Assembly: GCF_947503465.1 (NCBI RefSeq)
Contig: NZ_CANNDN010000001.1
Location: forward strand, 2,253,501-2,317,500
DNA length: 64,000 nucleotides
DNA from: an uncultured Tateyamaria sp.
GTDB taxonomy: Bacteria > Pseudomonadota > Alphaproteobacteria > Rhodobacterales > Rhodobacteraceae
Direction: 5' to 3'
Both the position numbers and the translations under genes were made by a program. Positions 18,129 through 42,792 of the stretch are shown piece by piece. Below the pieces are notes generated by a model. It made no database searches. It saw nothing but the letters and a program-made list of their open reading frames with translations, and was not told where the DNA came from. The stretch's first letter is position 1. Each line of letters starts with the position of its first letter.

Positions 18129-18403
18129 CACAAGACGACGTGCCATACTTGCCGCGCGGTGTGCGCACGCATTTTGATGCGGTGCGTCAGGTTGACGTGC
18201 TGCTCGGGCCCGAACGGGTGCTGGTGCTGGACCATGTTGGCACGGCTGTTTTGGGGCAGTTGGACGGGGTGGCCAGTCTGGGCGAAATCTCGACCAGGCT
18301 GGCCGAAGTCTATGATGCGCCGCTGGATGTGATCGCGCCGGATGTGACAGGCTTTGTCGCCGATTTGCGGGACAAGGGGATGGTACATGTCCACCCGCGT
18401 TGA
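18125..18403 (+). CDS. pqqD: PqqA-binding chaperone PqqD
   Basis: 92 residues, start ATG 18125 overlapping the pqqC stop. The family core LPRGVRTHFDAVRQVDVLLGPE, LDHVGTAVLGQLDG and VTGFVADLRDKGMV is clear. It binds PqqA and presents it to PqqE. Its last 17 bases overlap pqqE. Confidence 0.94.
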   Translation: MTQDDVPYLPRGVRTHFDAVRQVDVLLGPERVLVLDHVGTAVLGQLDGVASLGEISTRLAEVYDAPLDVIAPDVTGFVADLRDKGMVHVHPR

Positions 18404-19472
18404 TCCCCCCATGGCCATGCTTGCCGAACTGACGCATCGCTGTCCGCTGGCCTGCCCGTATTGTTCAAACCCGACTGAACTCTTGGCGAAGGACACCGAA
18501 CTCAGCACCGCGGCATGGTCTGATGTCTTTCGGCAAGCCGCGGCTCTGGGTGTCCTGCAATTGCACTTGTCGGGGGGCGAACCTGCATCACGGCGCGACC
18601 TTGTCGATCTGGTCGCGGCTGCGCGCGAGGCAGGACTTTATACGAACCTCATCACTTCCGGCATCGGTCTGAATGCGCGGCGCCTGCAAGAGCTGGACGA
18701 CGCCGGGCTGGACCATGTGCAATTGTCCCTGCAGGGCGTTACAGCAGCCATGGCGGACCGGATCGGCGGGTATGCAGGCGGGTTTGACCGCAAGATGCAC
18801 GTAGCTGAAATCATTGCCGATATCGGGTTTCCGCTGACCCTGAACGCGGTCATGCATCGCGAGAACCTGGATGATCTGCCCGCCACAATCGACATGGCTC
18901 GCCGGCTGGGCGCACGGCGGATCGAAGTGGCTTGTGTCCAGTTTCAGGGGTGGGCCCTTGTCAACCGCGCCGCCTTGCAGCCCAGCCGGGCGCAGGTGGA
19001 TGACGCCAAACGCACCGTGGCCCGTGCGGTCGAGGCGCTCAAAGGACGCTTGGTCATCGACTTTGTGCCACCTGACTACTACTCGGACTTTCCCAAGGCG
19101 TGCATGAACGGCTGGGGCTCCACAGGGGTGAACATCACACCGGACGGCACGGTCCTGCCGTGCCACGCGGCTGAGACACTTCCACACCTCACCTTCGACA
19201 AGGTGTCAGACCGCCCACTGGCAGAAATCTGGTATGATGGTGCGGCGTTCAACGCCTATCGCGGCACGGACTGGCTGCCGCCGTTGTGCCAGGGCTGCGA
19301 ACGCCGGGACATTGATTTTGGCGGCTGCCGGTGTCAGGCCATGGCCGTGTTGGGGGACGCATCGGCACCGGACCCGGTCTGCCACAAGTCACCCGGACGC
19401 GCCGCACTGGATGCATTGTTGACCGAAGAGGTGCACAGTGTCGATGCGCCCGAATTCGTCTATCGGCGATAG
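18387..19472 (+). CDS. pqqE: PQQ biosynthesis radical SAM protein PqqE
   Basis: 361 residues. Radical-SAM cluster motif CxxxCxxC at Cys19, Cys23 and Cys26 (HRCPLACPYC), followed by the GGEP SAM-binding motif and a C-terminal SPASM domain with GTVLPCHAAE, CQGCERRDIDFGGCRCQAM supplying auxiliary-cluster cysteines. Forms the Glu-Tyr carbon-carbon bond in PqqA. Start ATG 18387 lies within pqqD. No pqqF/pqqG protease gene is next to the operon. Confidence 0.96.
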   Translation: MSTRVDPPMAMLAELTHRCPLACPYCSNPTELLAKDTELSTAAWSDVFRQAAALGVLQLHLSGGEPASRRDLVDLVAAAREAGLYTNLITSGIGLNARRLQELDDAGLDHVQLSLQGVTAAMADRIGGYAGGFDRKMHVAEIIADIGFPLTLNAVMHRENLDDLPATIDMARRLGARRIEVACVQFQGWALVNRAALQPSRAQVDDAKRTVARAVEALKGRLVIDFVPPDYYSDFPKACMNGWGSTGVNITPDGTVLPCHAAETLPHLTFDKVSDRPLAEIWYDGAAFNAYRGTDWLPPLCQGCERRDIDFGGCRCQAMAVLGDASAPDPVCHKSPGRAALDALLTEEVHSVDAPEFVYRR

Positions 19473-24962: not shown

Positions 24963-27326
24963 TCACTGCATTGCTTCCCAAACGCGCGACGGCGTCACAG
25001 GCATGTCGATATGGGTCACGGTCTTGCCCCCCGACTGCAGCGCGTCGATCACCGCGTTGACGACCGTGGGCGGCGACCCGATGGCCCCGGCCTCGCCACA
25101 GCCCTTCACCCCAAGCGGGTTATGGGTGCACGGCGTGCCCTGGCTGTGATCCACCGCGAACATCGGCAGATCGTCGGCCCGGGGCATGGTGTAATCCATG
25201 TAAGACGCGCTCAGCAGCTGGCCGTTCTCGTCATAGGTGGTGTTTTCGACCAGCGCCTGCCCGATGCCCTGTGCCAGACCGCCATGGACCTGACCCGTCA
25301 CGATCATCGGATTTATGACATTGCCGAAATCATCTACGGCCGTCATCCGGTCGACGGTCACCTTGCCGGTTTCCGGGTCCACCTCAACCTCGCAGGCATA
25401 TGCGCCCGAGGGATAGGTGAAGTTCGCCGGATCGTAGAACGCCGTTTCCTCCAGCCCCGGTTCGATATCCTCCAGCGGGTATTCGTGCGGAATATACGCC
25501 TTCAGCGCGACCTCACCAAAGGTCACCGACTTGTCGGTACCCGAGACGGAGAACACGCCGTCTGCCAGCGTGATGTCGTGCTCGGACGCCTCCAGCATAT
25601 GGCCTGCAATCTTCTTGGCCTTGTTGATGATCTTCTCGGTCGCCCGCACCACGGCAGAGCCGCAAACGGCAAGGCTGCGCGAGCCATAGGTGCCCATCCC
25701 GAACGGGATCTTGGACGTGTCGCCATGCACGATGTCGATGACGGCGGGGTCGATGCCCAGCATCTCGGCCACCACTTGGGGAAAGGCGGTCTCGTGCCCT
25801 TGCCCGTGGCTGTGCGCGCCGACCATGACGCTCAGGTTGCCGGTGGCATTCACGCGCACCGTGGCGGCGTCATAGAGACCCACACGTGATCCCAGAACAC
25901 CGACAAGGTTCGACGGCGCGATGCCGCAGGCCTCGATATAGGCGTTCACGCCAAAGCCGCGCAGCAGCCCCTTGGCCTCGCTCTCCTTGCGACGCGCTGC
26001 AAAACCAGCCACATCCGCGACCTCTTCCATCTTGTCCATCAACGCGTCGTAATTGCCCGCGTCGTATTCCAGCCCGGCGGCGGAGGCAAAGGGGTACTGA
26101 TCCGGCTTGATGAAGTTCTTGCGGCGCAGTTCGATGGGGTCCATCCCCAACTCACGCGCGGCCTTGTCGATGACCCGTTCGATGGAATAGGTCGCCTCGG
26201 GCCGCCCGGCCCCACGATAGGCATCAACAGGGGCGGTGTTGGTAAAGACGGCCTTCACATTCACATAGACCAGAGGAACGGTGTAGTTCCCGGCCATCAG
26301 CGTGCCGTGCAGGAAGGTGGGCGTCGCGGTCGAAAAGTTCGACAGGTACGCACCCACATTCGCCTTCGTGTCCGTGCGGAAGGCAAGGAATTTGCCGTCC
26401 TTGTCCAGCGCCAATTCGATCTTGGTCACGTGGTCGCGGCCATGCGCGTCCGTCAGGAACGACTCGGTCCGGTCCGCCGTCCATTTCACCGGACGGTTCA
26501 ACCTTTTGGCCGCGGCCAGCACCAGCGCCTCTTCGCCGTAGTGGTAGATTTTCGAGCCGAAGCCGCCGCCCACGTCGGGGGCAATGACAGTCAGCATGTT
26601 CTCGGGAATACCCAGAACAAAGGCCGAAATCAGCAACCGCGTCAGGTGCGGGTTCTGCGATGTCGTGTGCAGGGTGTATTCACCCGTGCTGGCCTTGTAG
26701 CTGCCGATGGACGCCCGGGGTTCCATCGCGTTGGGGACAAGGCGGTTGTTGACCAGCTCCAGCGTGGTGACGTGATGCGCGTTCTTGATCGCATTGTCCG
26801 TTGCGTCGCGATTGTCCTCGATCCAGCCCCAGTCGAAACACTGGTTGGTGCCAATCTCGTCATGCACATAATTCGACCCCGACAGGGCGGCGTTCATGTC
26901 AACGATGGCGGGCAGCTCCTCGATGTCGGCCTCGATGGCCTCAACCGCGTCACGGGCCTGCTCTGCCGTCTCGGCGACCACGGCGGCATAGGCATCGCCC
27001 ACATGGCGGACCTTGCCGTGCGCCAGTACCGGGCGCTTGGGTTCCTTCATCGGCTCACCATTGCGCGAGTTGATCAGCCACCCGGCTGGGTTGCCGCCCA
27101 CTTCGGCAAAATCCTCGCCCGTGAACACGGCCAGCACGCCGGGCATCGCTTCGGCGGCCGATGTGTCGATAGATTTGATCGTGCCATGGGCAACGGTCGA
27201 GCGGGCAAAGACCGCGTAGGTCTGTTTTGCCAGCGTGATGTCGTCAGTGTATTCGCCGGTTCCGGTCAGGAAGCGGACGTCTTCGCGGCGCACTGTGGCG
27301 GCGCCAATCCCTGTATCCTTGGGCAT
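24963..27326 (-). CDS. Form II CO-dehydrogenase-type molybdenum hydroxylase, large (Mo-binding) subunit
   Basis: 787 residues, xanthine-oxidase family catalytic subunit, cytoplasmic (no signal). Active-site motif AYRGAGR at residues 369-375 is the form II signature; true CO dehydrogenase has AYRCSFR with the Cu-binding Cys, which is missing here. MPT-binding segments GGGFGSK and HGQGHETAFPQ and the catalytic Glu in VKGCGEAGAIG near the C-terminus are intact. It should oxidise an aldehyde or N-heterocycle, not CO. Position beside a PQQ alcohol dehydrogenase suggests an aldehyde substrate. Confidence 0.93.
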   Translation of the reverse strand: MPKDTGIGAATVRREDVRFLTGTGEYTDDITLAKQTYAVFARSTVAHGTIKSIDTSAAEAMPGVLAVFTGEDFAEVGGNPAGWLINSRNGEPMKEPKRPVLAHGKVRHVGDAYAAVVAETAEQARDAVEAIEADIEELPAIVDMNAALSGSNYVHDEIGTNQCFDWGWIEDNRDATDNAIKNAHHVTTLELVNNRLVPNAMEPRASIGSYKASTGEYTLHTTSQNPHLTRLLISAFVLGIPENMLTVIAPDVGGGFGSKIYHYGEEALVLAAAKRLNRPVKWTADRTESFLTDAHGRDHVTKIELALDKDGKFLAFRTDTKANVGAYLSNFSTATPTFLHGTLMAGNYTVPLVYVNVKAVFTNTAPVDAYRGAGRPEATYSIERVIDKAARELGMDPIELRRKNFIKPDQYPFASAAGLEYDAGNYDALMDKMEEVADVAGFAARRKESEAKGLLRGFGVNAYIEACGIAPSNLVGVLGSRVGLYDAATVRVNATGNLSVMVGAHSHGQGHETAFPQVVAEMLGIDPAVIDIVHGDTSKIPFGMGTYGSRSLAVCGSAVVRATEKIINKAKKIAGHMLEASEHDITLADGVFSVSGTDKSVTFGEVALKAYIPHEYPLEDIEPGLEETAFYDPANFTYPSGAYACEVEVDPETGKVTVDRMTAVDDFGNVINPMIVTGQVHGGLAQGIGQALVENTTYDENGQLLSASYMDYTMPRADDLPMFAVDHSQGTPCTHNPLGVKGCGEAGAIGSPPTVVNAVIDALQSGGKTVTHIDMPVTPSRVWEAMQ

Positions 27327-29442: not shown

Positions 29443-30141
29443 TCAGTTTGCGGCAGACAATCCGATGGTCAAGACTTCGGACGCCGACTTGTACGCATCA
29501 GGCGTGCCGTCAATCAGGTTGGCCGCGCGGAACGCAACGCTGTCGGCCACTGGGGCACCCGACAGGGTTGGAATGCTTGTCGCAATCTCTGTCAGCCGGT
29601 TCTTGAGGCCGTCGGCATCCGCACCGCTTGCGTCACTGGCATATCCGGCCAACTGATCGCGCATCGCCTTCAACTCGTCCGCGACCTCTTCCATCGCGAC
29701 ATCATCGGGTCGGGCCTCGATATAGGTGCGGATGGCCCAGGCGGCCTCCTGCCCCAACAACTCTCCAAAGGCGGGCATCTTGGTAATACCGTTCTGGGTA
29801 TAGCCTTCGACAAAACGCTCAACATACCATTCGTCGCCGTATTCTTCGGCCTCAAGGAACCTCAGGTCGGGGGCCAGACCGCCCGAAACAACCTCAAGCC
29901 CGTGGCAGCGTGCGCAGTTCTGGTTGTAGCCCGACGCGCCGATCTCGACGGCGCGCAGCCAGGTTTCCTCGCCCACCTTGTCGGCGCGATAGGGGTTTTC
30001 GGTCAACCAATCCCCTTCGATGGTGGGCAGGCCAGTCGTATCGACCGCTTGGGGTGCGACATCGCCATGGGCCACCGCCAGGGTCGCTGCAACGCTCATC
30101 GCGCCGGCCATCCAAAGCTGTTTTCTGGTCTTGCTGTTCAT
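29443..30141 (-). CDS. Periplasmic c-type cytochrome, XoxG/cytochrome c550-like electron acceptor
   Basis: 232 residues from the ATG at 30141 with GGGAGG ribosome site. Signal peptide ends near VAHG (residue 26). One heme site CARCHG and a Met ligand candidate in ITKMPAFGELLG, with the long N- and C-terminal extensions seen in quinoprotein partner cytochromes. Operon partner of the XoxJ-like gene. It most likely takes electrons from the PQQ alcohol dehydrogenase at 36791. Confidence 0.87.
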   Translation of the reverse strand: MNSKTRKQLWMAGAMSVAATLAVAHGDVAPQAVDTTGLPTIEGDWLTENPYRADKVGEETWLRAVEIGASGYNQNCARCHGLEVVSGGLAPDLRFLEAEEYGDEWYVERFVEGYTQNGITKMPAFGELLGQEAAWAIRTYIEARPDDVAMEEVADELKAMRDQLAGYASDASGADADGLKNRLTEIATSIPTLSGAPVADSVAFRAANLIDGTPDAYKSASEVLTIGLSAAN

Positions 30142-30210
30142 CACATGCCTCCCTGACATGGGTGCTCCTCTTGCCTTCTGTCCTACGCCACCAGATCGGG
30201 GGGCGGTATT

Positions 30211-30234
30211 GGACTTTGGTTGTGCGGCCAAAGG
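30211..30234. promoter_or_regulatory. Facing pair of CCAAAG half-sites in the cytochrome c / PQQ-ABC divergent promoter
   Basis: CTTTGG (30214-30219) and CCAAAG (30228-30233) form an inverted repeat across 8 bases. Read on the minus strand, CAACCAAAGTCC (30222-30211) matches the cluster motif CGACCAAAGTCG at 10 of 12 positions; on the plus strand CGGCCAAAGG is a second variant. Located between starts at 30141 and 30304. Confidence 0.4.
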
Positions 30235-30303
30235 AGTAAGACCATGGTCCTATACACACTCATTTCCGGCGCACGCTAGCGTTGCGATAACGGGAGGACG
30301 ATC

Positions 30304-31467
30304 GTGAAACACCTTGCCTTGGGTGCGCTCGTGGGGGCTGCGCTGGCCGCGCCCGTCAGTGCGGAAATCACTTTGACCATCGGATATCTGCGGGTCGAGC
30401 AGCCCATCCCCCCGACCTTGTCGAACCTTGACCCGATCCCGGAAAACAACGGGCTTGCAGGCGCGCAGACCGGTCTGGCGGACAACCTGACAACCGGAAA
30501 ATTCCTGGGGCAGACCTACGAATTGACAGTGACCGAGGTGTTCGAGGGCGAAGACGCGCTTGCCGCTGCCCGCGACCTGCTCGCCGTGTCGCCCTATCTG
30601 GTGATCGACGCCGCCGCCCCGGACATCACCGCCATTGCCGATCTGCCAGAGGCAGATGGTGCCGTCTTGTTCAACACCTCTGCCGGTGATCTGGCCCTGC
30701 GCGATACCGAATGCCGCGGCAACCTGCTGCATACGCTCGCCTCTGACGCGATGCGCACGGATGCGCTGGCGCAGGTGCTGGTGAAAAAACGCTGGGACGA
30801 TCTGGTGATGATCACCGGGACGCATGATGCCGACACCAGCTATGCCCAGGCCATGCGCCGGTCCCTGACCAAGTTCGGCCTGTCGCTTGAGGGCGAAAAG
30901 GAATGGGCGTTTGACGCCGACATGCGCCGCAATGCCAGCGAGGAGGTTCCGCTCTTCACGCAGGATTTCGGCGACTACGATGCGTTGATCATCGCGGACG
31001 AAGTGCACGATTTCGGGCGCTATGTCCTTTACAACACCTGGCAGGCGCGGCCGGTGGTCGGCTCGGAAGGGTTGACCGCCGTGGGCTGGTCTCCGGTGAT
31101 CGAACAATGGGGCGCTGCGCAGTTGCAGTCCCGCTTTGAAAAAGAACACGCGCGCGAAATGACCGCGCAGGACTATGCCGCCTGGGCCGCCGTGCGTACG
31201 CTGGGCGAGGCGATGACGCGCACCAACGCGACCGATCCCGAAACGCTGCGCACCTACATCCTGTCTGACCAGTTCGAACTGGCAGGATTCAAGGGCCGTC
31301 CGCTGACCTATCGCGACTGGAACGGCCAGTTGCGCCAGCCCATCGCCATCGCGCACCCGCGTGCGCTGGTGGCACAGGCGCCGCTGGACGGGTTCCTGCA
31401 CCAAATCAATGAACTAGACAGCCTGGGGCTCGACCGCCCGGAAAGCAATTGCGAGGCATTCCAATGA
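30304..31467 (+). CDS. PQQ-system ABC transporter substrate-binding protein (LutA/PedA1-like)
   Basis: 387 residues with signal peptide ending VSA near residue 20. Branched-chain-amino-acid-type binding fold, but of the special family tied to PQQ alcohol dehydrogenase systems: start ITLTIGYLRVEQPIPPTLSNL, middle HDADTSYAQAMRRSLTKFGL, end LDSLGLDRPESNCEAFQ. In Methylobacterium (lutA) and Pseudomonas putida (ped) the equivalent ABC genes are linked to lanthanide uptake. It starts an operon of five genes (to 34398) and overlaps the next gene by 4 bases. Lanthanide role is inferred from context. Confidence 0.85.
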   Translation: MKHLALGALVGAALAAPVSAEITLTIGYLRVEQPIPPTLSNLDPIPENNGLAGAQTGLADNLTTGKFLGQTYELTVTEVFEGEDALAAARDLLAVSPYLVIDAAAPDITAIADLPEADGAVLFNTSAGDLALRDTECRGNLLHTLASDAMRTDALAQVLVKKRWDDLVMITGTHDADTSYAQAMRRSLTKFGLSLEGEKEWAFDADMRRNASEEVPLFTQDFGDYDALIIADEVHDFGRYVLYNTWQARPVVGSEGLTAVGWSPVIEQWGAAQLQSRFEKEHAREMTAQDYAAWAAVRTLGEAMTRTNATDPETLRTYILSDQFELAGFKGRPLTYRDWNGQLRQPIAIAHPRALVAQAPLDGFLHQINELDSLGLDRPESNCEAFQ

Positions 31468-32426
31468 TACGATTGACCGCGATATTCTCTCTTCTGGCCT
31501 CGACCGCGATGGCAGGCGAAATTTGGGTCACCAACGAAAAAGACGACACGATCTCGGTCATCTCGACCGAAACGCTCGAGGTCATCAAGACCTACGACAC
31601 AGGCGAACGCCCGCGCGGCATCCTGTTTTCCAAGGATTACAGCCGCGTCTACATCTGCGCCTCGGACAGCAACGCGGTGCAGGTCATGGACCCGAACTCG
31701 GGCGAGATCCTGCATGAACTGCCATCAGGCGACGACCCGGAACAATTTGTCCTGCACCCCAACGATCGGCACCTTTATATCGCCAACGAAGACGACGCGA
31801 TCACAACCGTGGTGGATGTCGAAACCCGCAAGGTGATCGCGCAGATCGACGTGGGCGTCGAACCCGAAGGGATGGCCGTGTCCCCCGATGGCACCATCGC
31901 GATCACCACGTCTGAAACCACGAACATGGCCCACTGGATCGACACGGAAACACAGGAACTGTTCGCTAACACATTGGTCGACAGCCGCCCGCGCCATGCC
32001 GAGTTCATCAAGGACGGGGCCGAGATGTGGGTGAGTTCCGAGATCGGCGGCACCCTCACCGTGTTCGACACCGCCACGCAGACCGAAAAGGCCAAGATGA
32101 GCTTTGAGGTCCAGGGCGTCCACCCCGACCGGGTCCAGCCCGTAGGGTTCGAGTTCACCGCCGGTGACACACACGCCTTTGTGGCGCTTGGGCCGTCCAA
32201 CCACGTCGCCGTCGTCAATGCCACGACCTACGAGGTCGAGGAGTACATCCTTGTCGGGCGTCGGGTCTGGCACATGGAATTCAACGAAGACCGGTCATTG
32301 CTGTTCACCACCAACGGCGTGTCGGGTGACGTGACGGTTATCGACGTGGCAAAACGCGAAGCGATCAAGTCCATCAAGGTGGGCCGCTTCCCTTGGGGGG
32401 CTGCGTTCCGCCCCACCGGTTCTTAA
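31464..32426 (+). CDS. PQQ-catabolism-associated YVTN beta-propeller protein
   Basis: 320 residues with a 17-residue signal peptide (ASTAMA). Seven repeats such as IWVTNEKDDTISVISTETLEVI and LYIANEDDAITTVVDVETRKVI form a periplasmic YVTN propeller. This family occurs with the PQQ ABC genes and resembles LutD of Methylobacterium. Function unknown; a metal- or cofactor-handling scaffold is possible. Start at 31464 overlaps the preceding stop (ATGA). Confidence 0.87.
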   Translation: MIRLTAIFSLLASTAMAGEIWVTNEKDDTISVISTETLEVIKTYDTGERPRGILFSKDYSRVYICASDSNAVQVMDPNSGEILHELPSGDDPEQFVLHPNDRHLYIANEDDAITTVVDVETRKVIAQIDVGVEPEGMAVSPDGTIAITTSETTNMAHWIDTETQELFANTLVDSRPRHAEFIKDGAEMWVSSEIGGTLTVFDTATQTEKAKMSFEVQGVHPDRVQPVGFEFTAGDTHAFVALGPSNHVAVVNATTYEVEEYILVGRRVWHMEFNEDRSLLFTTNGVSGDVTVIDVAKREAIKSIKVGRFPWGAAFRPTGS

Positions 32427-32447: not shown

Positions 32448-32897
32448 ATGAAAACCCTGGCCCTGATCGCCGCAATGTCGCTTGCCGCACCGACACTTGC
32501 ACTGGCGGATGACGATGATGGCCCCAGCTTTGGCGCCGCGGGTCTGCTGGGCGGCAGCAACAAGGAAGACCTGCCGCCGATCATCCTGTCGGCGGGCGAA
32601 CCCATCGCGCCCGAAGGCCCTTGGGAATTGCAATCCGGCACCTATTACGAATTTGAAATCCAGGGTGACGGCAGCCAGGAACTGGCGCTCGTGGGGCCCG
32701 AGTTCTTCCGCGCCATCTGGATCGACGAGATCGTGGTCGAGGGTCTCGAAATCCGCCCCCTCGGCCTCGACAGTATCGAGTTCGACGAGGCGGGCGAGAT
32801 GGAAATCGGTTTCGTCGCGATTAAACCCGGCGCATACTACATCAAGATCCCGGGCACGTCGGGCGAAACGCAACGGTTGGACATCACCATTAAATGA
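32448..32897 (+). CDS. Small acidic exported protein of the PQQ ABC operon
   Basis: 149 residues; signal peptide of about 20 residues ends LALA, followed at once by DDDDG. The mature part has about 26 Asp/Glu against 7 Lys/Arg, and predicted strands in a cupredoxin-like pattern (YYEFEIQGDG, IEFDEAGEMEIGFVAIKPGAYYIKI). No Cys or His metal site. Not recognised beyond being a constant neighbour in such clusters, where the lutB/lutC exported genes sit. The acidity would suit cation binding. Stop overlaps the ATPase start. Confidence 0.75.
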   Translation: MKTLALIAAMSLAAPTLALADDDDGPSFGAAGLLGGSNKEDLPPIILSAGEPIAPEGPWELQSGTYYEFEIQGDGSQELALVGPEFFRAIWIDEIVVEGLEIRPLGLDSIEFDEAGEMEIGFVAIKPGAYYIKIPGTSGETQRLDITIK

Positions 32898-33610
32898 CAG
32901 GACTTGAGGCGCGCGGCCTCAGCTATGCCTACGGAGACAAGCAAGCGCTGGACGATGTGTCGTTCAGCGTCTCTTCGGGTGTCTTCTGTGCCCTTCTTGG
33001 CCCCAACGGCGCGGGCAAGTCCACGCTGTTCAACCTGCTGACCCGCCTGTTTGTCGCGCCCCACGGTCAGATCGTGATCGCAGGGCACGACCTGCGCACG
33101 GCACCGCGCGCGGCGCTGGCCCAGCTGGGGATCGTGTTTCAGCAAACCACACTCGATCTGGACCTCACGGTCCGGCAGAACCTGGGGTACTTCGCGGCCC
33201 TTCACGGCTTGTCGGGGCGCAGCGCCCGCACCAGGATCGACGGCGCGCTCGATCAACTGGATATGCGCGACCGCGCCGATGAAAAGGCGCGCGCACTGAA
33301 TGGCGGACACCGGCGACGGACCGAAATCGCTCGCGCGCTCTTGCATGATCCCGGCGTCCTGCTGCTGGACGAACCCACCGTGGGCCTGGATGCCGCCGCA
33401 CGCGCGTCGATCACCGACTATGCCCACACGCTGGCGGATGCAGGCAAGACAATCCTCTGGGCCACCCACCTCACGGACGAGGTGCGGCCCGAAGATGACC
33501 TGATCGTCCTGCACAACGCGCGTGTCTATGCCAAGGGCACTGCGCGGGCCATTGCCGCGGACATGACACTTCAGGATCGCTTTTTGTCGCTGACCGGGGT
33601 CGGCACATGA
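32894..33610 (+). CDS. PQQ-system ABC transporter ATP-binding protein (LutE-like)
   Basis: 238 residues, one nucleotide-binding domain: Walker A GPNGAGKST, Q-loop VFQQTTLDLDLTVRQNLGYF, Walker B VLLLDEPTVGLD, switch WATHLTDE. The signature motif is LNGGHRRRTEIARALL instead of LSGGQ. This altered signature (Asn and His) fits the PQQ alcohol dehydrogenase ABC subfamily. Overlaps the preceding and following genes by 4 bases each. With the ABC-2 permease downstream and the binding protein at 30304 it would form the complete transporter. Confidence 0.87.
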   Translation: MTGLEARGLSYAYGDKQALDDVSFSVSSGVFCALLGPNGAGKSTLFNLLTRLFVAPHGQIVIAGHDLRTAPRAALAQLGIVFQQTTLDLDLTVRQNLGYFAALHGLSGRSARTRIDGALDQLDMRDRADEKARALNGGHRRRTEIARALLHDPGVLLLDEPTVGLDAAARASITDYAHTLADAGKTILWATHLTDEVRPEDDLIVLHNARVYAKGTARAIAADMTLQDRFLSLTGVGT

Positions 33611-34398
33611 CGGCCTATCTCACCTCTTTGCGGGCCATCGTGCTGCGCGAGGCGCTGCGCTTTATCCACCAACGCGAACGGTTCATCGCCGCGCTGGTCC
33701 GCCCGCTGGTCTGGCTGCTGGTCTTTGCGGCCGGGTTCCGCGCGGCACTCGGGCTCAGCATCATTCCACCCTACCAAACCTACATCACCTACGAGACCTA
33801 CATCGTGCCCGGCCTCTGCGGCATGATCCTGCTGTTCAACGGCATGCAATCCTCGCTCAGCCTTGTCTACGATCGCGAAATGGGCTCGATGAAGCTGCTG
33901 CTGACCGCGCCCCTGCCCCGGTGGTGGTTGCTGCTGTGCAAGCTGATGGGATCAACGGCCATCTCCATCCTTCAGGTCTATGCGTTCCTCGCCATCGCGG
34001 CGGCCTTTGACATCCGCATGCCGGGCTGGGGATACGTCACCGTATTGCCGTCGCTGATCATCGCCGGTCTGATGCTCGGGGCGCTGGGGCTGCTTCTGTC
34101 CAGCTTCATCAAGCAACTGGAAAACTTTGCCGGGGTCATGAACTTCGTCATCTTCCCGATGTTCTTCTTGTCCTCCGCGCTCTACCCGCTGTGGAAAATG
34201 GCCGAAAGCTCGGAACTGCTGCACGACATCTGCGCGGTGAACCCGTTCACGCACGCGGTCGAACTGATCCGCTTTGCGCTCTACATGGACTTGAACGCAA
34301 CCGCGCTGGGGTGGACGGCTCTGGCCACACTGGCCTTCGCGGCCGCAGCGCTTGTGGGCTACGATCCGGCCCGCACCCGCATCGGGAAACGCGGTTAG
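33607..34398 (+). CDS. ABC-2 type permease of the PQQ-associated transporter (LutF-like)
   Basis: 263 residues, six membrane helices, ABC-2 family: TYIVPGLCGMILLFNGMQSSLSLVYDREMGSMKLLLTAPLPRWWLL is the characteristic region (shown here only as landmarks GMQSS and DREMGSMK). NPFTHAVELIRFALY near the C-terminus is also conserved. Unusual pairing: an exporter-type permease with a periplasmic binding protein. That is the arrangement of lutAEF/pedA1A2BC systems linked to lanthanides. Tail-to-tail overlap with the TauB-like ATPase gene. Confidence 0.86.
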   Translation: MTAYLTSLRAIVLREALRFIHQRERFIAALVRPLVWLLVFAAGFRAALGLSIIPPYQTYITYETYIVPGLCGMILLFNGMQSSLSLVYDREMGSMKLLLTAPLPRWWLLLCKLMGSTAISILQVYAFLAIAAAFDIRMPGWGYVTVLPSLIIAGLMLGALGLLLSSFIKQLENFAGVMNFVIFPMFFLSSALYPLWKMAESSELLHDICAVNPFTHAVELIRFALYMDLNATALGWTALATLAFAAAALVGYDPARTRIGKRG

Positions 34399-35978: not shown

Positions 35979-36033
35979 GGCGTGATCCTCCCGTATCACA
36001 GAAATCGTAGCAGCATCGCGCGCCGCCGGAATA

Positions 36034-36046
36034 CGACCAAAGGCGC
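36034..36046 (-). promoter_or_regulatory. CGACCAAAGGCGC motif upstream of the split ABC operon
   Basis: One-base variant of CGACCAAAGTCGC, 56 bases before the ATG at 35978, between that gene and the unknown exported protein at 36051. Confidence 0.42.
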
Positions 36047-36050
36047 AGAC

Positions 36051-36572
36051 CTAGTCGATGACCAGCCGTGGCAGCCAGTGACTGTCGGGATCGCTTTCAT
36101 GCAGGTCGGACGGGTCCAGCGGGCGCAGGTTGCCCGCCTCGGGTGGCGCAGACAGCAGATCCATGTCCATCTCGTGCAGCGTACCGACAAGACGGCCCTC
36201 CTCCTGTTCCAGCTTGTAGTAGATACCGTTCCACATGTTGATCCCGTACTCGGTCGCGCCTTTCCAAAGGAACAGGAAATCATATTCCAGATCGGTCAGG
36301 TCTGCGCTGACATTCCGCGCGATGTCATAGGGATATGGCACATGGCACCAGTGCTTTCGCGGGCCTTCAAGACACCGGAACGGACGCATCGACAAAAAGT
36401 GGTCGGTAAACGGGGCGTCCAGCATCTCGACCTCGTAGTCCCCGCTTGGGGCAATCCGGACCGTGGCAATGTCGATGCGGGTGCCGTCCCCCGATTCGAG
36501 CGACACGGTCTGTGTCCCGGCCCACGCCACCTGGACAATCGCCATCACGGCAAGTGGCAGTGCTTTCAACAT
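36051..36572 (-). CDS. Exported protein of unknown function, conserved in quinoprotein loci
   Basis: 173 residues from ATG 36572 (GGGAGG-like GGCAGGGAGGCAC site). Signal peptide ends VAWA near residue 18. Two cysteines 9 residues apart ([18 protein letters not shown]) could form a disulfide. The middle [26 protein letters not shown] is rich in aromatic residues. I do not recognise a characterised family. Divergent from the alcohol dehydrogenase gene, sharing the region with the CGACCAAAGTCGC motif, so probably co-regulated with it. Confidence 0.72.
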
Positions 36573-36790
36573 CCCTGTGCCTCCCTGCCGCCAGATTACG
36601 CGCACCCAAATCGACTCGCTGCGCGACCAAAGTCGCAAGGCTCCTGTCAAGTTCCTTGGGGTCTTACGACCATTGGCCAATACCTGCTTGGCCCGTTTGC
36701 GCAAATAATTGGCACAGGGCGAAAGCTGTGCGCCACCTGTTGGTCGCTTTCGCAGGAACTGCCCACCAACGGGTTTTGGGAGGAAAACAC
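36573..36790. promoter_or_regulatory. Divergent promoter region of the alcohol dehydrogenase with CGACCAAAGTCGC palindrome
   Basis: Best copy of the cluster motif: GCGAC-CAAA-GTCGC at 36623-36637 with 5-bp arms. It lies about 155 bases before the dehydrogenase start and about 50 bases before the divergent start at 36572. The rest of the region shows TTGGCC repeats (36671-36700) and an AT-rich stretch but no clear sigma-70 pair. Confidence 0.5.
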
Positions 36791-38557
36791 ATGAACAGAT
36801 TTATTGCAGCTGCGGTCGCGGGGGTGCTGGCCACGACACCCGTCTTCGCCGAAGGCGTGACCGAGGAGATGCTGGCGAATGACACCGCCTCGACGGACAA
36901 CGTGCTGACAAACGGCATGGGCCGCCATCTCCAGCGCTATTCGCCGCTCGACATCCTCAACAAGGACAATGTCGACAACCTGGTGCCCGCCTGGGCCTTC
37001 AGCCTCGGCGGTGAAAAGCAGCGCGGCCAGGAAACCCAGCCCATCGTGCATGACGGTGTGATGTATATCACCGGCTCCTACAGCCGGATGTACGCCATCG
37101 ACGTCAAGACGGGCGAAGAGATCTGGCAATACGACGCCCGCCTGCCCGAAGGCATCCTGCCCTGCTGCGACGTGGTGAACCGGGGTGCGGCCATCTATGG
37201 CGACAACATCTACTTCGGCACGCTCGATGCCCGCATCGTGGCGCTGAACGCCAAGACGGGCGACACGGTCTGGAACAAGAAGATCGCCGACTACAAGGCC
37301 GGCTACAGCTATACGGCGGCCCCGCTGATCGTGGACGGTCTGGTCATCACCGGCAACTCCGGCGGTGAATTCGGCATCGTCGGCGCGGTCGAGGCGCGCG
37401 ACGCCGAAACGGGCGAACTGGTCTGGTACCGTCCCGTGATCGAAGGTCACATGGGCATGCTGAACGGCGAAGAAAGCACCATGACCGGCACGCTGAACGC
37501 GACCTGGCCGGGCGACATGTGGAAAACCGGTGGTGGTGCCACGTGGCTCGGTGGCTCCTATGACGCGGACACCGACACGCTGGTCTTCGGCACAGGCAAC
37601 CCCGCGCCCTGGAACTCGTGGTTGCGCGATGCGGGCCAGAACAATGACGGTTCGGGTGACAACCTCTATGCCGCCTCGCGTCTCGGGATCGATCCCAAGA
37701 CCGGCGAGATCAAGTGGCACTTCCAGACCACACCGCGCGAAGGCTGGGACTATGACGGCGTGAACGAAGTGGTGGCCTACGAAAACCGCGCGGGCGAAAA
37801 GCGTTTCGCCACGGCGGACCGCAACGGCTTCTTCTACGTCCTGAACCGCGAAGACGGCGCATTCGTGCGCGGCGTGCCCTTCGTCAAGGACATCAGCTGG
37901 GCTGACGGGCTGGACGAAAACGGGCGACCCATCTTTAATGAGGCGAACCGGCCCGGTGATCCGGCCGAAGCCGCAGACGGCAAGAAAGGCGAGGTTGTCT
38001 TTGCATCGCCCTCGTTCCTTGGGGGCAAGAACTGGATGCCCATGGCGTTCAGCCAGCGCACCGGCAACTTCTACGTGCCCTCGAACGAATGGGGCATGGA
38101 CATCTGGAACGAACCGATCACCTACAAAAAGGGTGCCGCCTATCTCGGGTCGGGCTTTACCATCAAGCCCAACTACGAAGACCATATCGGCAGCCTGAAG
38201 GCGATCGACCCCGACACCGGCGAAACCAAGTGGGAGTTCAAGAACGACGCCCCGCTCTGGGGTGGCGTGATGACCACGGGCGGTGGCCTCGTCTTCACCG
38301 GCACCCCCGAAGGCAAGTTCATCGCCTTCGATGACGAGACCGGCGAAGAACTGTGGTCCTTCCAGACCGGCTCGGGCATCGTGGGTCAGCCCATCACCTG
38401 GGAACAGGACGGCGAACAATATGTCACCGTCATCTCGGGCTGGGGCGGTGCCGTTCCGCTCTGGGGCGGGGAAGTGGCCAAAAAGGTCAACTACCTGAAC
38501 CAGGGTGGCATGCTCTGGACGTTCCGCCTGCCGGAACAGCTGGCCTCGGCCAACTGA
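36791..38557 (+). CDS. PQQ-dependent alcohol dehydrogenase with lanthanide-type active site (ExaF/XoxF-like)
   Basis: 588 residues with signal peptide ending VFA at residue 20; GGGAGG at 36779-36784 sets the start. Eight-bladed propeller quinoprotein. Adjacent cysteines PCCD form the vicinal disulfide ring. Metal ligands by alignment are Glu193 (GGEFG), Asn270 (GTGNPAPWN) and catalytic Asp320; Asp322, two residues on (WDYDGVNE), is the extra ligand found in lanthanide-dependent enzymes, where calcium MxaF has Ala. [18 protein letters not shown] resembles ethanol dehydrogenases (ExaA/ExaF) more than methanol XoxF. It oxidises primary alcohols in the periplasm, passing electrons to a cytochrome c. 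Main enzyme of the cluster. Confidence 0.93.
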
Positions 38558-38606: not shown

Positions 38607-38669
38607 TGCGTTGGACGTAGTACCTTTTGACAAGTGACCGATCGGACATGGCTGGTCTAAGCTGTGCCT

Positions 38670-39371
38670 ATGTCGCTTCAAACCTCACCGCTGTCCGATC
38701 CCTCCGAAACCAAGGTGCCGCAAGGCTGGGCGCTGGTGATTGATGATCATCCGTTGTTCTGCGATGCGCTTGAACTGACGCTCCGGTCGGTGGCCAATTT
38801 CGCACGGGTGGTCACCGCCGACAGCCTGGAACGCGCCCTTGAAAAGCTGGGCGAAGACGTACCCCCCACATTGATTCTGCTGGATCTGAACCTGCCGGAT
38901 GTCGACGGGCTGGACGGGCTCATGCGGCTCAAACGCACGGCTGACGCGACGCCGGTGATCATTGTGTCGTCCATGACGGACAATTCGATCATCGCCAATT
39001 CAATCATCGCGGGTGCGCAGGGGTTTGTGCCCAAACACTCGCACCGGTCCGTCTTCCGCGAAGCCATCGAGACGATCGCCGCGGGCGATATCTACAAACC
39101 GTCCGGCTTTGTCGAAGGCAATGGCACGGACCCGAAAGAAGACCACCTGACGCGGCTGACCTCGCTGACCAATCAACAGGCCCGCATTCTTGAACTGATC
39201 TGCGAAGGCAAGCTGAACAAGCAGATCGCCTATGACCTGTCCATCGCCGAAACCACGGTCAAGGCACATGTGACCGCGATCATGCGCAAGCTTGGGGTCC
39301 AAAGCCGGACCCAGGCCGTGCTGGTCGCGCAAGAAGCCAAGTATTCAAAGGTCTTGCCAAGTCCCGAGTGA
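38670..39371 (+). CDS. LuxR/NarL-family response regulator (ErbR/AgmR-like)
   Basis: 233 residues from ATG 38670; a GTG two codons earlier is possible. Receiver domain: acidic pair in VIDDHPLFCDAL, phospho-acceptor Asp in ILLDLNLPDVDG, SS in IIVSSMT, Lys in GFVPKHS. C-terminal LuxR helix-turn-helix: LTNQQARILELICEGKLNKQIA and ETTVKAHVTAIMRKLGV. Followed by a FIST sensor and a hybrid kinase, and next to a PQQ alcohol dehydrogenase. This mirrors the ErbR/ErcS' region of Pseudomonas aeruginosa ethanol oxidation. The best candidate to bind the CGACCAAAGTCG sites. Confidence 0.88.
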   Translation: MSLQTSPLSDPSETKVPQGWALVIDDHPLFCDALELTLRSVANFARVVTADSLERALEKLGEDVPPTLILLDLNLPDVDGLDGLMRLKRTADATPVIIVSSMTDNSIIANSIIAGAQGFVPKHSHRSVFREAIETIAAGDIYKPSGFVEGNGTDPKEDHLTRLTSLTNQQARILELICEGKLNKQIAYDLSIAETTVKAHVTAIMRKLGVQSRTQAVLVAQEAKYSKVLPSPE

Positions 39372-39403
39372 CGCTCGTATCCTGAGCGCCAGGGAGAACT
39401 CAA

Positions 39404-40609
39404 ATGACATTGCAGTCCAAAGCCGACAGGCTTGAAGGACGTGCCGTGGCGGACCAGTACGCTATATTGCGAACTGGTGAAGTGCGCGCTTCAACGACGT
39501 CGCCTGTAAAACATCTCAAACGCAAACTGGGTGACAGCCCCTTTGCGCTGGTCGCGCTGTTCGTGACACCCATGATCGACTTTCAAAGCGTCGTCGACGA
39601 AGCCGCAGACCTGTTTCCCGACACGGATGTGCTGGCCTGCACGACGGCCGGGGAAATCGGCACCACAGGGTACGAAGAGGGGCTTGTCGTTGCTGTTGGG
39701 TTCCCGTCTGACGGGTTTGTCACGACATCGCTGATGATCGAAGACATCAGCGCGCTCGACACCCAATCGACCATCGATCGGATCACGCTGGAACGGATGG
39801 CGCTGCGGGACAAGACGCCGGGGCTTGATGACAACTTCGCATTTCTCGTGGTTGATGGCCTGTCGCTCAGCGAGGATACACTCGCCGCCACCATCGCGCC
39901 CGCCCTTCGGGACTTTCCGATCTTTGGCGGCTCTGCGGGCGACGGCACCAGCTTTGCCCACACCTATGTTGCGTTGAACGGAAAGGTGGCCACCGACGCG
40001 GCCATCCTGACATTGGCCCGCAGCCGGTACCAGACCCGCGTGTTCAGTCTGAACCACCTGATCCCGGGCGACACGCAGATGGTTGTTACGGGCGCCGACC
40101 CGGCCCGAAGAATCGTCAAGGAAATCAACGCCGAACCCGCCGCACGTGAATATGCGCGACTTGTGGGCAAGGACCCGGACCAGTTGGATCGTTTCACCTT
40201 TGCCTCGCATCCGGTCGTGGTTCGGATCGGCAACACCCACCACGTGCGGGCGATCCAGCAGGTCAACGAGCATGGGGAACTGGTGTTCTTTTCCGCCATT
40301 GACGAAGGCATGGTGCTGACTGTTGCGTCGCAGGAAAACCTGTCGGCGCATCTGGAAAAGAAGCTGACGGAACTTGGCACGCCGAACCGGCCGGTAAACA
40401 TCATTGGCTGCGATTGTATCCTGCGTCGGATCGAGGCCGAACAATCCCAGCAGACACGGCAAATCTCGGACGTGCTGAGCGCGCACAGGGTGACCGGCTT
40501 TTCGACCTACGGCGAACAGATTGGCCCGCTGCATGTCAATCACACAATGAGCGGCGTTGCGTTCTACCATCCGGCACCGCATGGCAAGGCGAACGGCGAG
40601 TGTCCCTGA
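39404..40609 (+). CDS. FIST-domain sensor protein (NosP-like)
   Basis: 401 residues, cytoplasmic, with FIST_N (ALFVTPMIDFQSVVDEAADLFPDTDVLACTTAGEIG; landmark CTTAGEIG, then FGGSAGDG) and FIST_C (around GCDCILRRIEAEQ and GFSTYGEQIG) regions. Ribosome site GGGAGA at 39391-39396. FIST proteins sense small ligands; in P. aeruginosa NosP (PA1975) is a heme protein that senses NO and controls the kinase NahK/ErcS' encoded next to it. Here too the stop overlaps the kinase gene by 10 bases. Heme binding here is untested. Confidence 0.87.
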   Translation: MTLQSKADRLEGRAVADQYAILRTGEVRASTTSPVKHLKRKLGDSPFALVALFVTPMIDFQSVVDEAADLFPDTDVLACTTAGEIGTTGYEEGLVVAVGFPSDGFVTTSLMIEDISALDTQSTIDRITLERMALRDKTPGLDDNFAFLVVDGLSLSEDTLAATIAPALRDFPIFGGSAGDGTSFAHTYVALNGKVATDAAILTLARSRYQTRVFSLNHLIPGDTQMVVTGADPARRIVKEINAEPAAREYARLVGKDPDQLDRFTFASHPVVVRIGNTHHVRAIQQVNEHGELVFFSAIDEGMVLTVASQENLSAHLEKKLTELGTPNRPVNIIGCDCILRRIEAEQSQQTRQISDVLSAHRVTGFSTYGEQIGPLHVNHTMSGVAFYHPAPHGKANGECP

Positions 40610-42792
40610 TCAACCCACAGGATTCGCTTGAGCGGCAGAACGAAAAGCTGCTCCAGATTTCGCAGGCGCTGATGCGCCGGGTCGAACAGAAGACCGAACA
40701 ATCCGGGTTTGCCTACCAGCAATTCGAACGCGCCGCATTGCTGGAATCCGAGGTGCGCGAACGCACCCGCGATCTGGAACGCACGCTGGATCTGCTCCAG
40801 GATTCGAATGCCCGTCTTGAACAGGCCAATCTGGAAACCGAAACGGCCCGCGCCAACCTGACCGAGGCAATCGAGACGATCAACGAAGGCTTTGCGCTGT
40901 TTGATCAGGACGACCGGCTGGTGCTGTACAACAGCCGGTTCTGCCGCGACCTTCAGGATGTCGAGGCGATCCTGCACGAGGGTCTGTCCTTCAACGACTA
41001 TGTCACCTCGATCTCGAACAGCCGCTTTCTCGCCCTGCCGGACGGAGAGACACCCCATGACTGGGCGCAGTTGCGTCTGGAACGGCACCGCGAAGAGCAC
41101 GTGGTGTTCAACGTCAGCCTGATCTGGGACCGATGGTTGCAAGCCTCGGAACACAGGACGTCGCGCAATGGCACGGTGATCCTGCAAACCGACGTCACCG
41201 ACATCATCCGCATGGAACGGCAGGAACGCGACAAGATGCGTCACCAGCAGGCGCGCAAGTTGCAAGCCACGCTGGACCACCTCAACCAGGGTGTCTGTAT
41301 CTTTGACCACGACAAGACGCTGGTGGGCTGGAACAAGCGGATGGACCGGCTGCTGGACGTGGCCCCGGTACGCACCCGCCGCAAGCTGACCTTTGACGAC
41401 CTGATGGAACAGTTTCAGGAGGAACTGACCTTCGACACCGGCTTTAGCGCGGACCATCTGATCGACTGGACCCGACGCACCCGTCCGCGCGACCCCATCG
41501 CGTTCGAGGTGACGCGCAAAGGTGACCAGATCTATAGCATCTTTGCACAGGAAATGCCCGACCGCGGTTTTGTGATCAGCCTGACGGACGTCACGTCTGA
41601 ACGCGCCGCCACGCGTGCGCTGGCAGAGGTCAATGAAAAGCTGGAGGGATGGGTCGAGGCGCGCACGGCCGAGCTGGAAGAGGCGCTGTCGGATGCCGAA
41701 CGCGCCAACGCATCAAAGTCCCGCTTTGTCGCCGCGGCCAGCCACGATCTGTTGCAGCCCCTGTCGGCGGCCAAGCTGTTCGTGTCGTCGATCTCGGACC
41801 AGACCGACAACCGCGCCATCAAGGAAGTGGTCGCCAAGACCGAAACCGCGCTGCAAGGTGTCGAACAGATCATCGAGGCGCTGTCGGCGATCTCGAAGCT
41901 GGACGCGGGCAAGGCGGTGTTCGAGGTACAGCCCGTGTCGCTGACCGAAATCTTCAATCCGCTGCGCGACGAACTGGCGCCGACCGCCCGCGCCAAGGGG
42001 TTGACCTTTTCGCTGGTGCACAGCGGACTGACAGTGGTCAGCGACCCCGGATACTTGCGGCGGATCGTGCAGAACCTGCTGTCCAACGCCATCCGCTACA
42101 CCACCACGGGCCGCATCCTTGCCGGTGTGCGGCGTGTCGGCAGGTTCGCCCGGATCGAGGTCTGGGATACCGGCTGTGGTATTCGCGAGGAAGACCAGCA
42201 AACCATTTTCCAGGAGTTCAAGCAGCTTGGCTCGGGCCCGGCGAATGGCGGTCTGGGGCTTGGCCTTGCCATTGTGGAACGGGCCTGCAAGGGCCTTGAT
42301 CATCCGTTGGAGATGTGGTCGGAGCCGGGGATCGGCAGTTGTTTCAGCCTTGTCGTCCCGGTCTCGGCCCCGACCACCCGGATGCTGAGCCCCTTTGCAA
42401 GCCAGGGCCCCACCGTCGAACGTGACCTCAAGGGGTTGCTGGTGATGCTGGTGGAAAACAACCGCAGCGTCGCACAGGCCGTGACGCACCTGATCGAAAG
42501 CAGCCGGGGCGAGGTTATCCTGGCGGAAACGGCCGAAGAAGCGCTGGCGACCATTTCCGAAATCGACCTGGTGCCGGATGTATTCCTGCTGGACTATCAA
42601 CTGGGTGACGGCATGAACGGCATCCAGCTTTACGAACATATCCTGCGCACGTACGGCCCTGTTCCTGCGTCGATCGTGTCGGCGGACCGGACTGCCGAAC
42701 TGCGGGCGCACTGCAAGCGGCTGAACCTGAACATGCTGGCGAAACCGGTGAACGCGCAGCGGCTTTATGCCTTTCTGAGAGACGGGCTGTGA
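40600..42792 (+). CDS. Hybrid histidine kinase (NahK/ErcS'-like) with PAS regions and C-terminal receiver
   Basis: 730 residues from GTG 40600, which overlaps the FIST stop. N-terminal coiled coil (SLERQNEKLLQISQALMRRVEQKT onward to about residue 90), then two PAS-like regions (INEGFALFDQDDRLVLYNSRF; LNQGVCIFDHDKTLVGWNKRM). HisKA has His382 (AASHDLLQPLSAAKLF) and the ATPase has N-box (QNLLSNAIRYT), G1 (DTGCGI) and G2 (GLGLGLAI). The C-terminal receiver has Asp665 (FLLDYQLGDG). No membrane segment, so a cytoplasmic kinase probably controlled by the FIST protein, signalling to the LuxR-type regulator at 38670. Confidence 0.88.
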   Translation: MSLINPQDSLERQNEKLLQISQALMRRVEQKTEQSGFAYQQFERAALLESEVRERTRDLERTLDLLQDSNARLEQANLETETARANLTEAIETINEGFALFDQDDRLVLYNSRFCRDLQDVEAILHEGLSFNDYVTSISNSRFLALPDGETPHDWAQLRLERHREEHVVFNVSLIWDRWLQASEHRTSRNGTVILQTDVTDIIRMERQERDKMRHQQARKLQATLDHLNQGVCIFDHDKTLVGWNKRMDRLLDVAPVRTRRKLTFDDLMEQFQEELTFDTGFSADHLIDWTRRTRPRDPIAFEVTRKGDQIYSIFAQEMPDRGFVISLTDVTSERAATRALAEVNEKLEGWVEARTAELEEALSDAERANASKSRFVAAASHDLLQPLSAAKLFVSSISDQTDNRAIKEVVAKTETALQGVEQIIEALSAISKLDAGKAVFEVQPVSLTEIFNPLRDELAPTARAKGLTFSLVHSGLTVVSDPGYLRRIVQNLLSNAIRYTTTGRILAGVRRVGRFARIEVWDTGCGIREEDQQTIFQEFKQLGSGPANGGLGLGLAIVERACKGLDHPLEMWSEPGIGSCFSLVVPVSAPTTRMLSPFASQGPTVERDLKGLLVMLVENNRSVAQAVTHLIESSRGEVILAETAEEALATISEIDLVPDVFLLDYQLGDGMNGIQLYEHILRTYGPVPASIVSADRTAELRAHCKRLNLNMLAKPVNAQRLYAFLRDGL

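Follow-up and report, generated by a model that had tools for sequence, protein, structure and literature searches.

The question raised by this locus is what a FIST sensor protein does when its gene lies between those of a LuxR-type response regulator and a hybrid histidine kinase, directly behind a pyrroloquinoline quinone (PQQ)-dependent alcohol dehydrogenase (ADH): which genes does such a triad control, and which signal does it answer? The three genes, here called R (regulator), T (FIST protein) and S (kinase), are located in a 64,000-nucleotide (nt) stretch of a contig from an uncultured Tateyamaria sp. (NZ_CANNDN010000001.1), and this whole stretch is referred to as the window. The best explanation of the data is that R-T-S is an auxiliary-sensor two-component system controlling the PQQ alcohol-oxidation island at whose end it lies, with an aldehyde as the most likely signal, a reading to which we give a probability of slightly over one half (about 0.52). 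Taken by its parts, control of the island by R-T-S is very probable, and whether T responds to an aldehyde or some other carbonyl is an even call.

A first-pass annotation of the window had placed a LuxR response regulator, a FIST protein and a hybrid kinase here, and the open reading frames (ORFs) together with the Pfam matches bore this out, all three genes being co-directional. The ORF of R, which begins 106 nt after the end of ADH, opens at a GTG at 38664 with an ATG at 38670, and the start of S was set by inspection at GTG 40600 in preference to TTG 40414. A gap of 32 nt separates R from T, and with S starting at this GTG its first ~10 nt lie within T, so that the three genes have the appearance of one operon. 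The Pfam scan identified two PAS_7 stretches, HisKA, HATPase_c and Response_reg in S, and showed no Hpt domain; the receiver aspartate of R as well as the HisKA histidine and C-terminal receiver aspartate of S were recognized by eye. A FIST-kinase fusion, suggested by long open frames near some T genes, was rejected, as different frames and a stop after T were found in 7/7 loci checked. An aspartate two residues past the catalytic aspartate marks lanthanide-dependent PQQ-ADHs, and D331 and D333 were found in all 42 aligned rows, the window enzyme among them; by this residue pair the window ADH is of the lanthanide type, its metal use being predicted.

The conservation of this arrangement was assessed in 89 Rhodobacteraceae FIST loci, used out of 91 listed after the window's own copy and one weak match had been left out, with neighbourhoods of ~18 kb each where the contig allowed; neighbours were marked by tblastn, and only marked genes were looked for. 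R was the next marked gene upstream of T in 85/89 loci (gap ≤230 nt) and S the next one downstream in 88/89 (gap ≤260 nt), and given these counts the R-T-S adjacency is not chance. In 27 of the 89 loci the first marked gene ahead of R was ADH, at a distance of ≤400 nt in 24 and of 1.0-2.0 kb in three, and this held for all 27 loci outside the one-carbon (C1) class with an ADH in view. Another 20 loci constitute the C1/formaldehyde class, called class III (gfa, flhA, fghA, SoxYZ-like genes and two small ORFs), an order R-T-S that also occurs in S. meliloti and Alloyangia pacifica; the neighbour was a molybdenum dehydrogenase in 19/89 loci, an aldehyde dehydrogenase (ALDH) in 3/89, and ped or pqq genes with no ADH in view in 2/89. 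At three loci (L060, L064 and L067), as read from the starts of the ORFs, the neighbours of R-T-S are a gene for a peptide-type ATP-binding cassette (ABC) binding protein and one resembling 3-hydroxybutyrate dehydrogenase, and no alcohol marker is in view.

Across 198 genomes of the family, T was matched in 78, and FIST and PQQ-ADH were present together in 54, FIST only in 24, PQQ-ADH only in 5 and neither in 115 (odds ratio 52, p 1e-23, a p value that overstates independence because the genomes are related). The five genomes with PQQ-ADH and no R-T-S carried XoxF-like or divergent enzymes only. ADH precedes R-T-S also on plasmids of Tateyamaria, Pseudosulfitobacter, Sulfitobacter, Ruegeria, Shinella and Paracoccus, with two genes in between on three Paracoccus plasmids, and on a second Ruegeria plasmid R-T-S adjoins a molybdenum dehydrogenase with no ADH. 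Counterexamples were the FIST gene of a Methylorubrum DM4 plasmid, beside which no regulator or kinase is annotated in an incomplete gene table, and the T-S pairs of Azospirillum and Novosphingobium, which have no R upstream. These neighbourhoods confirmed the tie between triad and lanthanide-type dehydrogenase that the annotation had suggested, with ADH just upstream of R in the 27 loci; neither a scattering of the triad nor its absence beside the dehydrogenase in relatives, which it had named as outcomes that would speak against the proposal, was seen.

Linkage of the triad to the island was also examined at the promoters. The footprint of 15 ADH promoters, from the window and 14 relatives, gave the element TACGACCATTGNNCAATACC, and a conserved palindrome, GCGACCAAAGTCGC, begins 42 nt ahead of it in the window and close relatives; GCGACNNNNGTCGC has one exact copy in the window, at this palindrome. 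The element was matched at ≥15 of 20 positions, the two N being counted as matches, in 41/52 ADH upstream regions versus 1.15% of shuffles, and in 27 of the 38 outside the 14 deriving relatives; 9 of the 11 upstreams lacking it belong outside the window's family. Throughout the genome the ADH site was the sole match at ≤2 mismatches. A matrix trained without the window itself, but on close relatives, placed its five best hits in the window in the ADH promoter, in the PedF/PedA1 region (three, two of them overlapping) and before ssuA (one), the copies outside the ADH promoter being degenerate. Upstream of R, scores over the 95% null were obtained in 18/27 class I, 11/20 class II, 8/16 other and 1/20 class III loci, and this null is conservative because it was drawn from the same loci, which hold real sites. 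No excess of the element was detected upstream of XoxF, flhA and gfa genes, and it was found (15 of 20) in 0/29 molybdenum dehydrogenase upstreams, a poor test because the promoter may precede another subunit. The element was present in 10/12 ADH genes of the window type for which no link to R-T-S was seen and in 1/23 XoxF-like or divergent ones (L336-L338, three of the 38 upstreams in this comparison, whose ADHs were already in the matrix, being left out of the 10/12), so that it accompanies the enzyme and not R alone. From its sequence and distribution, the TACGACCATTGNNCAATACC-like element is likely the operator of class I/II R and is treated here as putative.

The operon layout, the linkage and the promoter element with its distribution were observed directly, as were the predicted fold of T and its residue match described below; binding of the element by R, transfer from S to R, contact between T and S and the aldehyde as ligand are inferred. 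In the proposed mechanism, the FIST protein T, located in the cytoplasm, would bind the signal and govern how active the soluble hybrid kinase S is; phosphate would pass from S to R; and R would bind TACGACCATTGNNCAATACC-like elements before ADH and PedF/PedA1, and in many relatives also before its own gene. The signal would be an aldehyde, the product of ADH, which the thiol of C338, with E371 activating it, would capture reversibly in the manner of C326/E362 of human FBXO22, and S and R, steered by the aldehyde-sensing T, would switch the island on. Supportively, pseudoazurin, kinase, FIST and LuxR genes of Sinorhizobium NGR234 track the adjacent ADH and pqq genes, rising in Leucaena bacteroids (PMC3732241; for this and the other cited papers our statements refer to the available excerpts), and the authors already asked if the signal genes regulate the PQQ genes.

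The proposal for the signal comes from the fold of T. For the AlphaFold model of T (predicted local distance difference test 92.9), the best solved fold was human FBXO22 (Z 21.3, root-mean-square deviation 3.0, 252 residues), followed by chorismatase and cyclic amide hydrolases (Z 8.8-12.7). C338, E371 and H377 were invariant in 111/111 T rows, and among 32 FIST proteins, 20 of them distant, C338, R341, G365, F366, G370, E371 and two more glycines were invariant. When the profile of these 32 was aligned with FBXO22, C338 was paired with residue 318 of the 8s7d_D chain and E371 with its residue 354; the 403-residue chain 29hg_A, counted along the alignment, numbers the same stretch +8, which leads to C326/E362. 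The FBXO22 fold and the counterparts of its Cys-Glu pair were thus both found in T, on a predicted model and a weak profile alignment. Aldehydes form a reversible hemithioacetal at C326 of FBXO22, which is lost in C326A, and the activity is lost in E362A (PMC13316043, PMC11208438). Because T adjoins enzymes making or consuming aldehydes, aldehyde sensing at C338 is proposed, with the aldehyde as a candidate ligand.

Several results weigh against this explanation. On the side of linkage, T was missing from 10/20 same-genus genomes, 18/89 R-T-S loci carried no metabolic marker, only 2/83 R upstreams were over the 99% null, and the R upstream in the window had no site among the 14 best matrix hits. 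On the side of the ligand, the profile match to FBXO22 was weak by itself (E 0.48, below two proteasome chains): in PDB sequence searches the window T alone and one distant FIST alone gave no match, a 45-row profile gave three unrelated weak matches, and the broad 32-row profile alone reached FBXO22. C338 and E371 were invariant in 32/32 FISTs, 20 of them distant, so that the two residues may have a structural role or act on other ligands, and because the pair is invariant in every FIST aligned it cannot alone mark aldehyde sensors. The aldehydes reported for FBXO22 are synthetic degrader compounds (PMC13316043, PMC11208438), another FBXO22 structure paper describes, in its available text, no obvious ligand pocket in the FIST domain (PMC11185555), and NosP proteins bind heme and nitric oxide (NO) (PMC12570481, PMC12889525). 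An rfdT mutation left adhI expression in formaldehyde unchanged in an organism that has a second T, afdT (PMC4776306), which speaks against a simple role of T unless AfdT covers for it. A link between bacterial FIST proteins and aldehydes was not found in the literature searched, which yielded FBXO22 only and had most subscription papers outside it.

The NosP proteins lead to the alternative that survives best, an unlikely one, in which T is a NosP-like heme protein sensing NO (or carbon monoxide) and nitrosative or low-oxygen signals gate alcohol oxidation. The homology is clear (NosP model NF041558, E 1.6e-107); H218 (79/87 class I/II rows, 23/23 NosP rows), H377, C79 and C338 are common to T and NosP, and any of them could bind heme; and expression of the NGR234 triad goes up in nodule bacteroids (PMC3732241). 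However, T scored 359.8 bits at a cut-off of 450 and fell outside the NosP clade: in a quick tree with midpoint root, which left out L047, L055, L080, L081, L121, L143, rows lacking a long S and surplus rows per class, the window was placed in a class I/II clade (57 rows, SH-aLRT 99), NosP and alphaproteobacterial NosP-like rows formed a separate clade (36 rows, 97), and the third clade was made up of class III (20 rows, 99). The cysteines at window columns 54 and 297, found in 23/23 NosP rows and used as a criterion of our own, are V54 and S297 in T. FIST and nirK showed no co-occurrence in the 198 genomes (both 7, FIST only 71, nirK only 17, neither 103; odds ratio 0.6, p 0.37), nirK being one NO-metabolism marker and NO genes not being among the neighbourhood markers. 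On these grounds NO gating was rejected as first choice, and NosP-grade loci too adjoin alcohol or aldehyde genes (20/23, described below). Of the ligand that the annotation had proposed to gate alcohol oxidation, "NO or another small molecule", the NO half gained no support, FIST going with PQQ-ADH and not with nirK, and the other small molecule fared better.

Less likely still, S itself would sense the alcohol or redox state via its two PAS_7 stretches, with T accessory or redundant, in agreement with the adhI expression unaffected by the rfdT mutation (PMC4776306); T is nevertheless kept next to R in 85/89 and next to S in 88/89 loci, which were found by T, and a Burkholderia NosP binds its kinase and inhibits kinase autophosphorylation (PMC12570481). 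The least probable alternative is that the promoter element serves a different regulator of this ADH subfamily while R controls something else, as might be suspected from the unlinked ADHs that carry the element and from the lack of a strong copy before R in the window, against which stand the weak copies before R at class II and other loci with no ADH in view, their rarity in class III, and the PQQ-ADH genomes without R-T-S, whose enzymes are of other types.

The island that R-T-S would control spans 16.5-42.8 kb of the window and ends in ADH, R, T and S (Table 1); before ADH, the order is the pqqB-pqqE region, an ABC permease, a 4Fe-4S protein, ApbE, the molybdenum hydroxylase, the ped genes and an SsuA-like ABC pair. 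PedA1, PedA2, PedB, PedC and PedF were all over the NCBI cut-offs and lie near the PQQ-ADH, as in a ped-type cluster.

Table 1. Coordinates of the triad, its putative operators and the accompanying island genes in the window
Feature	Position	Strand	Basis
R, NarL/LuxR-type response regulator (FlhR/AfdR/AgmR-like)	38670..39371	+	Pfam Response_reg + GerE
T, FIST sensor protein (FIST_N plus FIST_C)	39404..40609	+	Pfam FIST + FIST_C
S, soluble hybrid histidine kinase, FlhS/NahK-like	40600..42792	+	Pfam, NCBIfam
Lanthanide-type PQQ alcohol dehydrogenase (ADH)	36758..38557	+	TIGR03075, 766 bits
Putative R operator TACGACCATTGGCCAATACC, 73 nt before the ADH start codon	36665..36684	+	footprint
Conserved palindrome GCGACCAAAGTCGC beside the operator	36623..36636	.	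alignment of 15 promoters
Operator-like site, PedF/PedA1 divergent promoter region	30237..30256	+	second-best matrix hit, 21.8 bits
Operator-like site, PedF/PedA1 divergent promoter region	30205..30224	-	third-best matrix hit, 15.9 bits
Operator-like site before the SsuA-like binding protein gene	36032..36051	+	fourth-best matrix hit, 12.1 bits
PedF cytochrome c550	29443..30144	-	TIGR04494, 185 bits (over cut-off); start set by T. omphalii comparison
PedA1-type ABC substrate-binding protein	30304..31467	+	TIGR03863, over cut-off
PedA2-type beta-propeller protein	31464..32426	+	TIGR03866, over cut-off
PedB-type ABC ATPase	32894..33610	+	TIGR03864, over cut-off
PedC-type ABC permease	33607..34398	+	TIGR03861, over cut-off
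Molybdenum hydroxylase large subunit, AYRGAGR motif	24963..27326	-	Pfam + motif
pqqB to pqqE region (PQQ cofactor synthesis)	16498..19472	+	Pfam Lactamase_B_2 and Radical_SAM/SPASM, ORFs

Within the pqq region, pqqB and pqqE were matched by tblastn to the annotated genes of locus L051, pqqC was assigned by reading of the ORFs, and pqqD was not located. The AYRGAGR motif of the molybdenum hydroxylase is presumably that of form II, CO-dehydrogenase-like enzymes, and the same hydroxylase family adjoins R-T-S in the 19/89 loci with no alcohol dehydrogenase in view. The ABC permease (BPD_transp_1, 20183-20944) lies ~14 kb from the ATPase and SsuA-like binding protein (34395-35999), a pair with no permease of its own, and may be their partner. 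The stretch 21049-24026 encodes a 4Fe-4S protein (Fer4_5), which we take to be NosR-like, and an ApbE flavin transferase, and both recur across several such PQQ islands. A small, apparently secreted protein with no NCBIfam match is encoded at 36054-36572, divergent from ADH, the operator region being common to both. The island (16498-42792) is carried by a 2.5-Mb contig here, by a 60-kb plasmid in T. omphalii (L042, pDOK1-4-4) and by plasmids of several Roseobacteraceae, and by this placement it looks like a mobile alcohol-oxidation island.

What an aldehyde-sensing T would mean can be stated from two published questions. How AfdRS and RfdRS sense formaldehyde is described as open, the regulators and kinases seeming to have no conserved cysteines and the role of the middle protein being unclear (PMC4776306), and a ped review leaves open whether NO or alcohols are the signal of the NosP homologue and PedS1 (PMC12997753). 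If the middle FIST protein were the aldehyde sensor, both questions would reduce to the single residue C338, and human FBXO22 would have a chemistry in common with the FIST proteins of bacteria. Aldehyde sensing through C338, at about even odds, is a specific hypothesis that is cheap to test, and the promoter element provides a defined target for R. A wider and rather doubtful extension sees in the FIST domain a covalent carbonyl sensor of ancient origin, whose invariant Cys-Glu pair would reversibly catch aldehydes in bacteria and in human FBXO22 and which in bacteria would couple the aldehyde of alcohol or methanol dehydrogenases to a kinase; the Afd/Rfd/Flh systems would then have in it the formaldehyde sensor that they are missing, and for NosP the response to NO would be a trait acquired later or an incidental one.

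Four known systems can be compared with the window triad. The human FBXO22 FIST domain is the best fold match, with C326/E362 aligned to C338/E371; it differs in being part of a ubiquitin ligase, in its identity of 12-14% in the structural alignments and in its synthetic aldehyde ligands. In NGR234 (NGR_b03210-NGR_b03250), an ADH 79% identical to that of the window is followed by R, T and S, an order confirmed on pNGR234b and seen also in locus L303, and the genes are co-induced in Leucaena bacteroids; this system is rhizobial, has a pseudoazurin gene downstream, and no ligand of the sensor is proposed in the available text (PMC3732241).

The Pseudomonas NosP-NahK/ErcS' system with AgmR/ErbR (PP_2663-PP_2665, PA1975-PA1978) was, in its P. 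aeruginosa form, the model invoked by the annotation. Its FIST, hybrid kinase and LuxR families are homologous to those of the window, as claimed, but the gene order is not the same, since the gammaproteobacterial loci have T-S with R convergent and the window has R-T-S on one strand. S scored 393.6 against NF041831 (NahK, cut-off 1500) and 340.8 against NF041832 (NahK/ErcS family, cut-off 400), below both; the kinase tree, on which membership in the NahK/ErcS' group had been staked, leans weakly outside that group and is given little weight because its branches are long, one row is short and the other kinases number only 5. Among 349 genomes sampled across the phylum, the NosP model was matched in 127 and over its cut-off in 23. 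At the 23 best NosP-grade loci, S lay beside T in 22 and R within 6 kb in 20, and a ped, PQQ-ADH, ALDH or glutathione-dependent formaldehyde dehydrogenase marker was found at 20 (two by a CXXCW protein alone, and with no random-locus baseline). At several of these loci the genes run T, S, R convergent, CXXCW, PedC, PedB, PedA2, PedA1, which is also the order of the P. putida ped cluster (PMC12997753, where PP_2663 carries the label GfdT), and the company of PedC, often with PedA1, A2 and B, resembles the ped context of the window. The Pseudomonas system differs in the convergent R, in higher NosP scores, in the extra constant cysteines and in its published role, which is in biofilm via HptB. 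With both T and S under the NCBI cut-offs and T placed apart from the NosP clade, the window triad is no NosP/NahK copy.

The closest likeness in gene order is to AfdRTS and RfdRTS of Rhodobacter sphaeroides and FlhR-orf2-FlhS of Paracoccus denitrificans, described as regulator, middle ORF and kinase (afdR-afdT-afdS, rfdR-rfdT-rfdS, flhR-orf2-flhS; PMC4776306) and as controlling methanol and formaldehyde oxidation genes (PMC4776306, PMC8879981), and in the window R, T and S are likewise adjacent on one strand. AfdT, RfdT and orf2 are inferred to be class III T proteins from their description, the sequences compared being the class III T proteins of S. meliloti and Alloyangia, to which the window T is homologous and whose triads adjoin flhA, fghA, cytochrome and xoxF-type genes; a scan with 15 class III T proteins returned no R. 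sphaeroides or P. denitrificans among the best 80 of 293 relatives. Compared with the Afd/Flh type, the window triad has a T of another clade, a non-XoxF PQQ-ADH with ped genes, and a putative operator that class III is without. Collectively, the window triad belongs to a kind already known, within which it forms a clade of its own, and is not a relocated NosP/NahK system.

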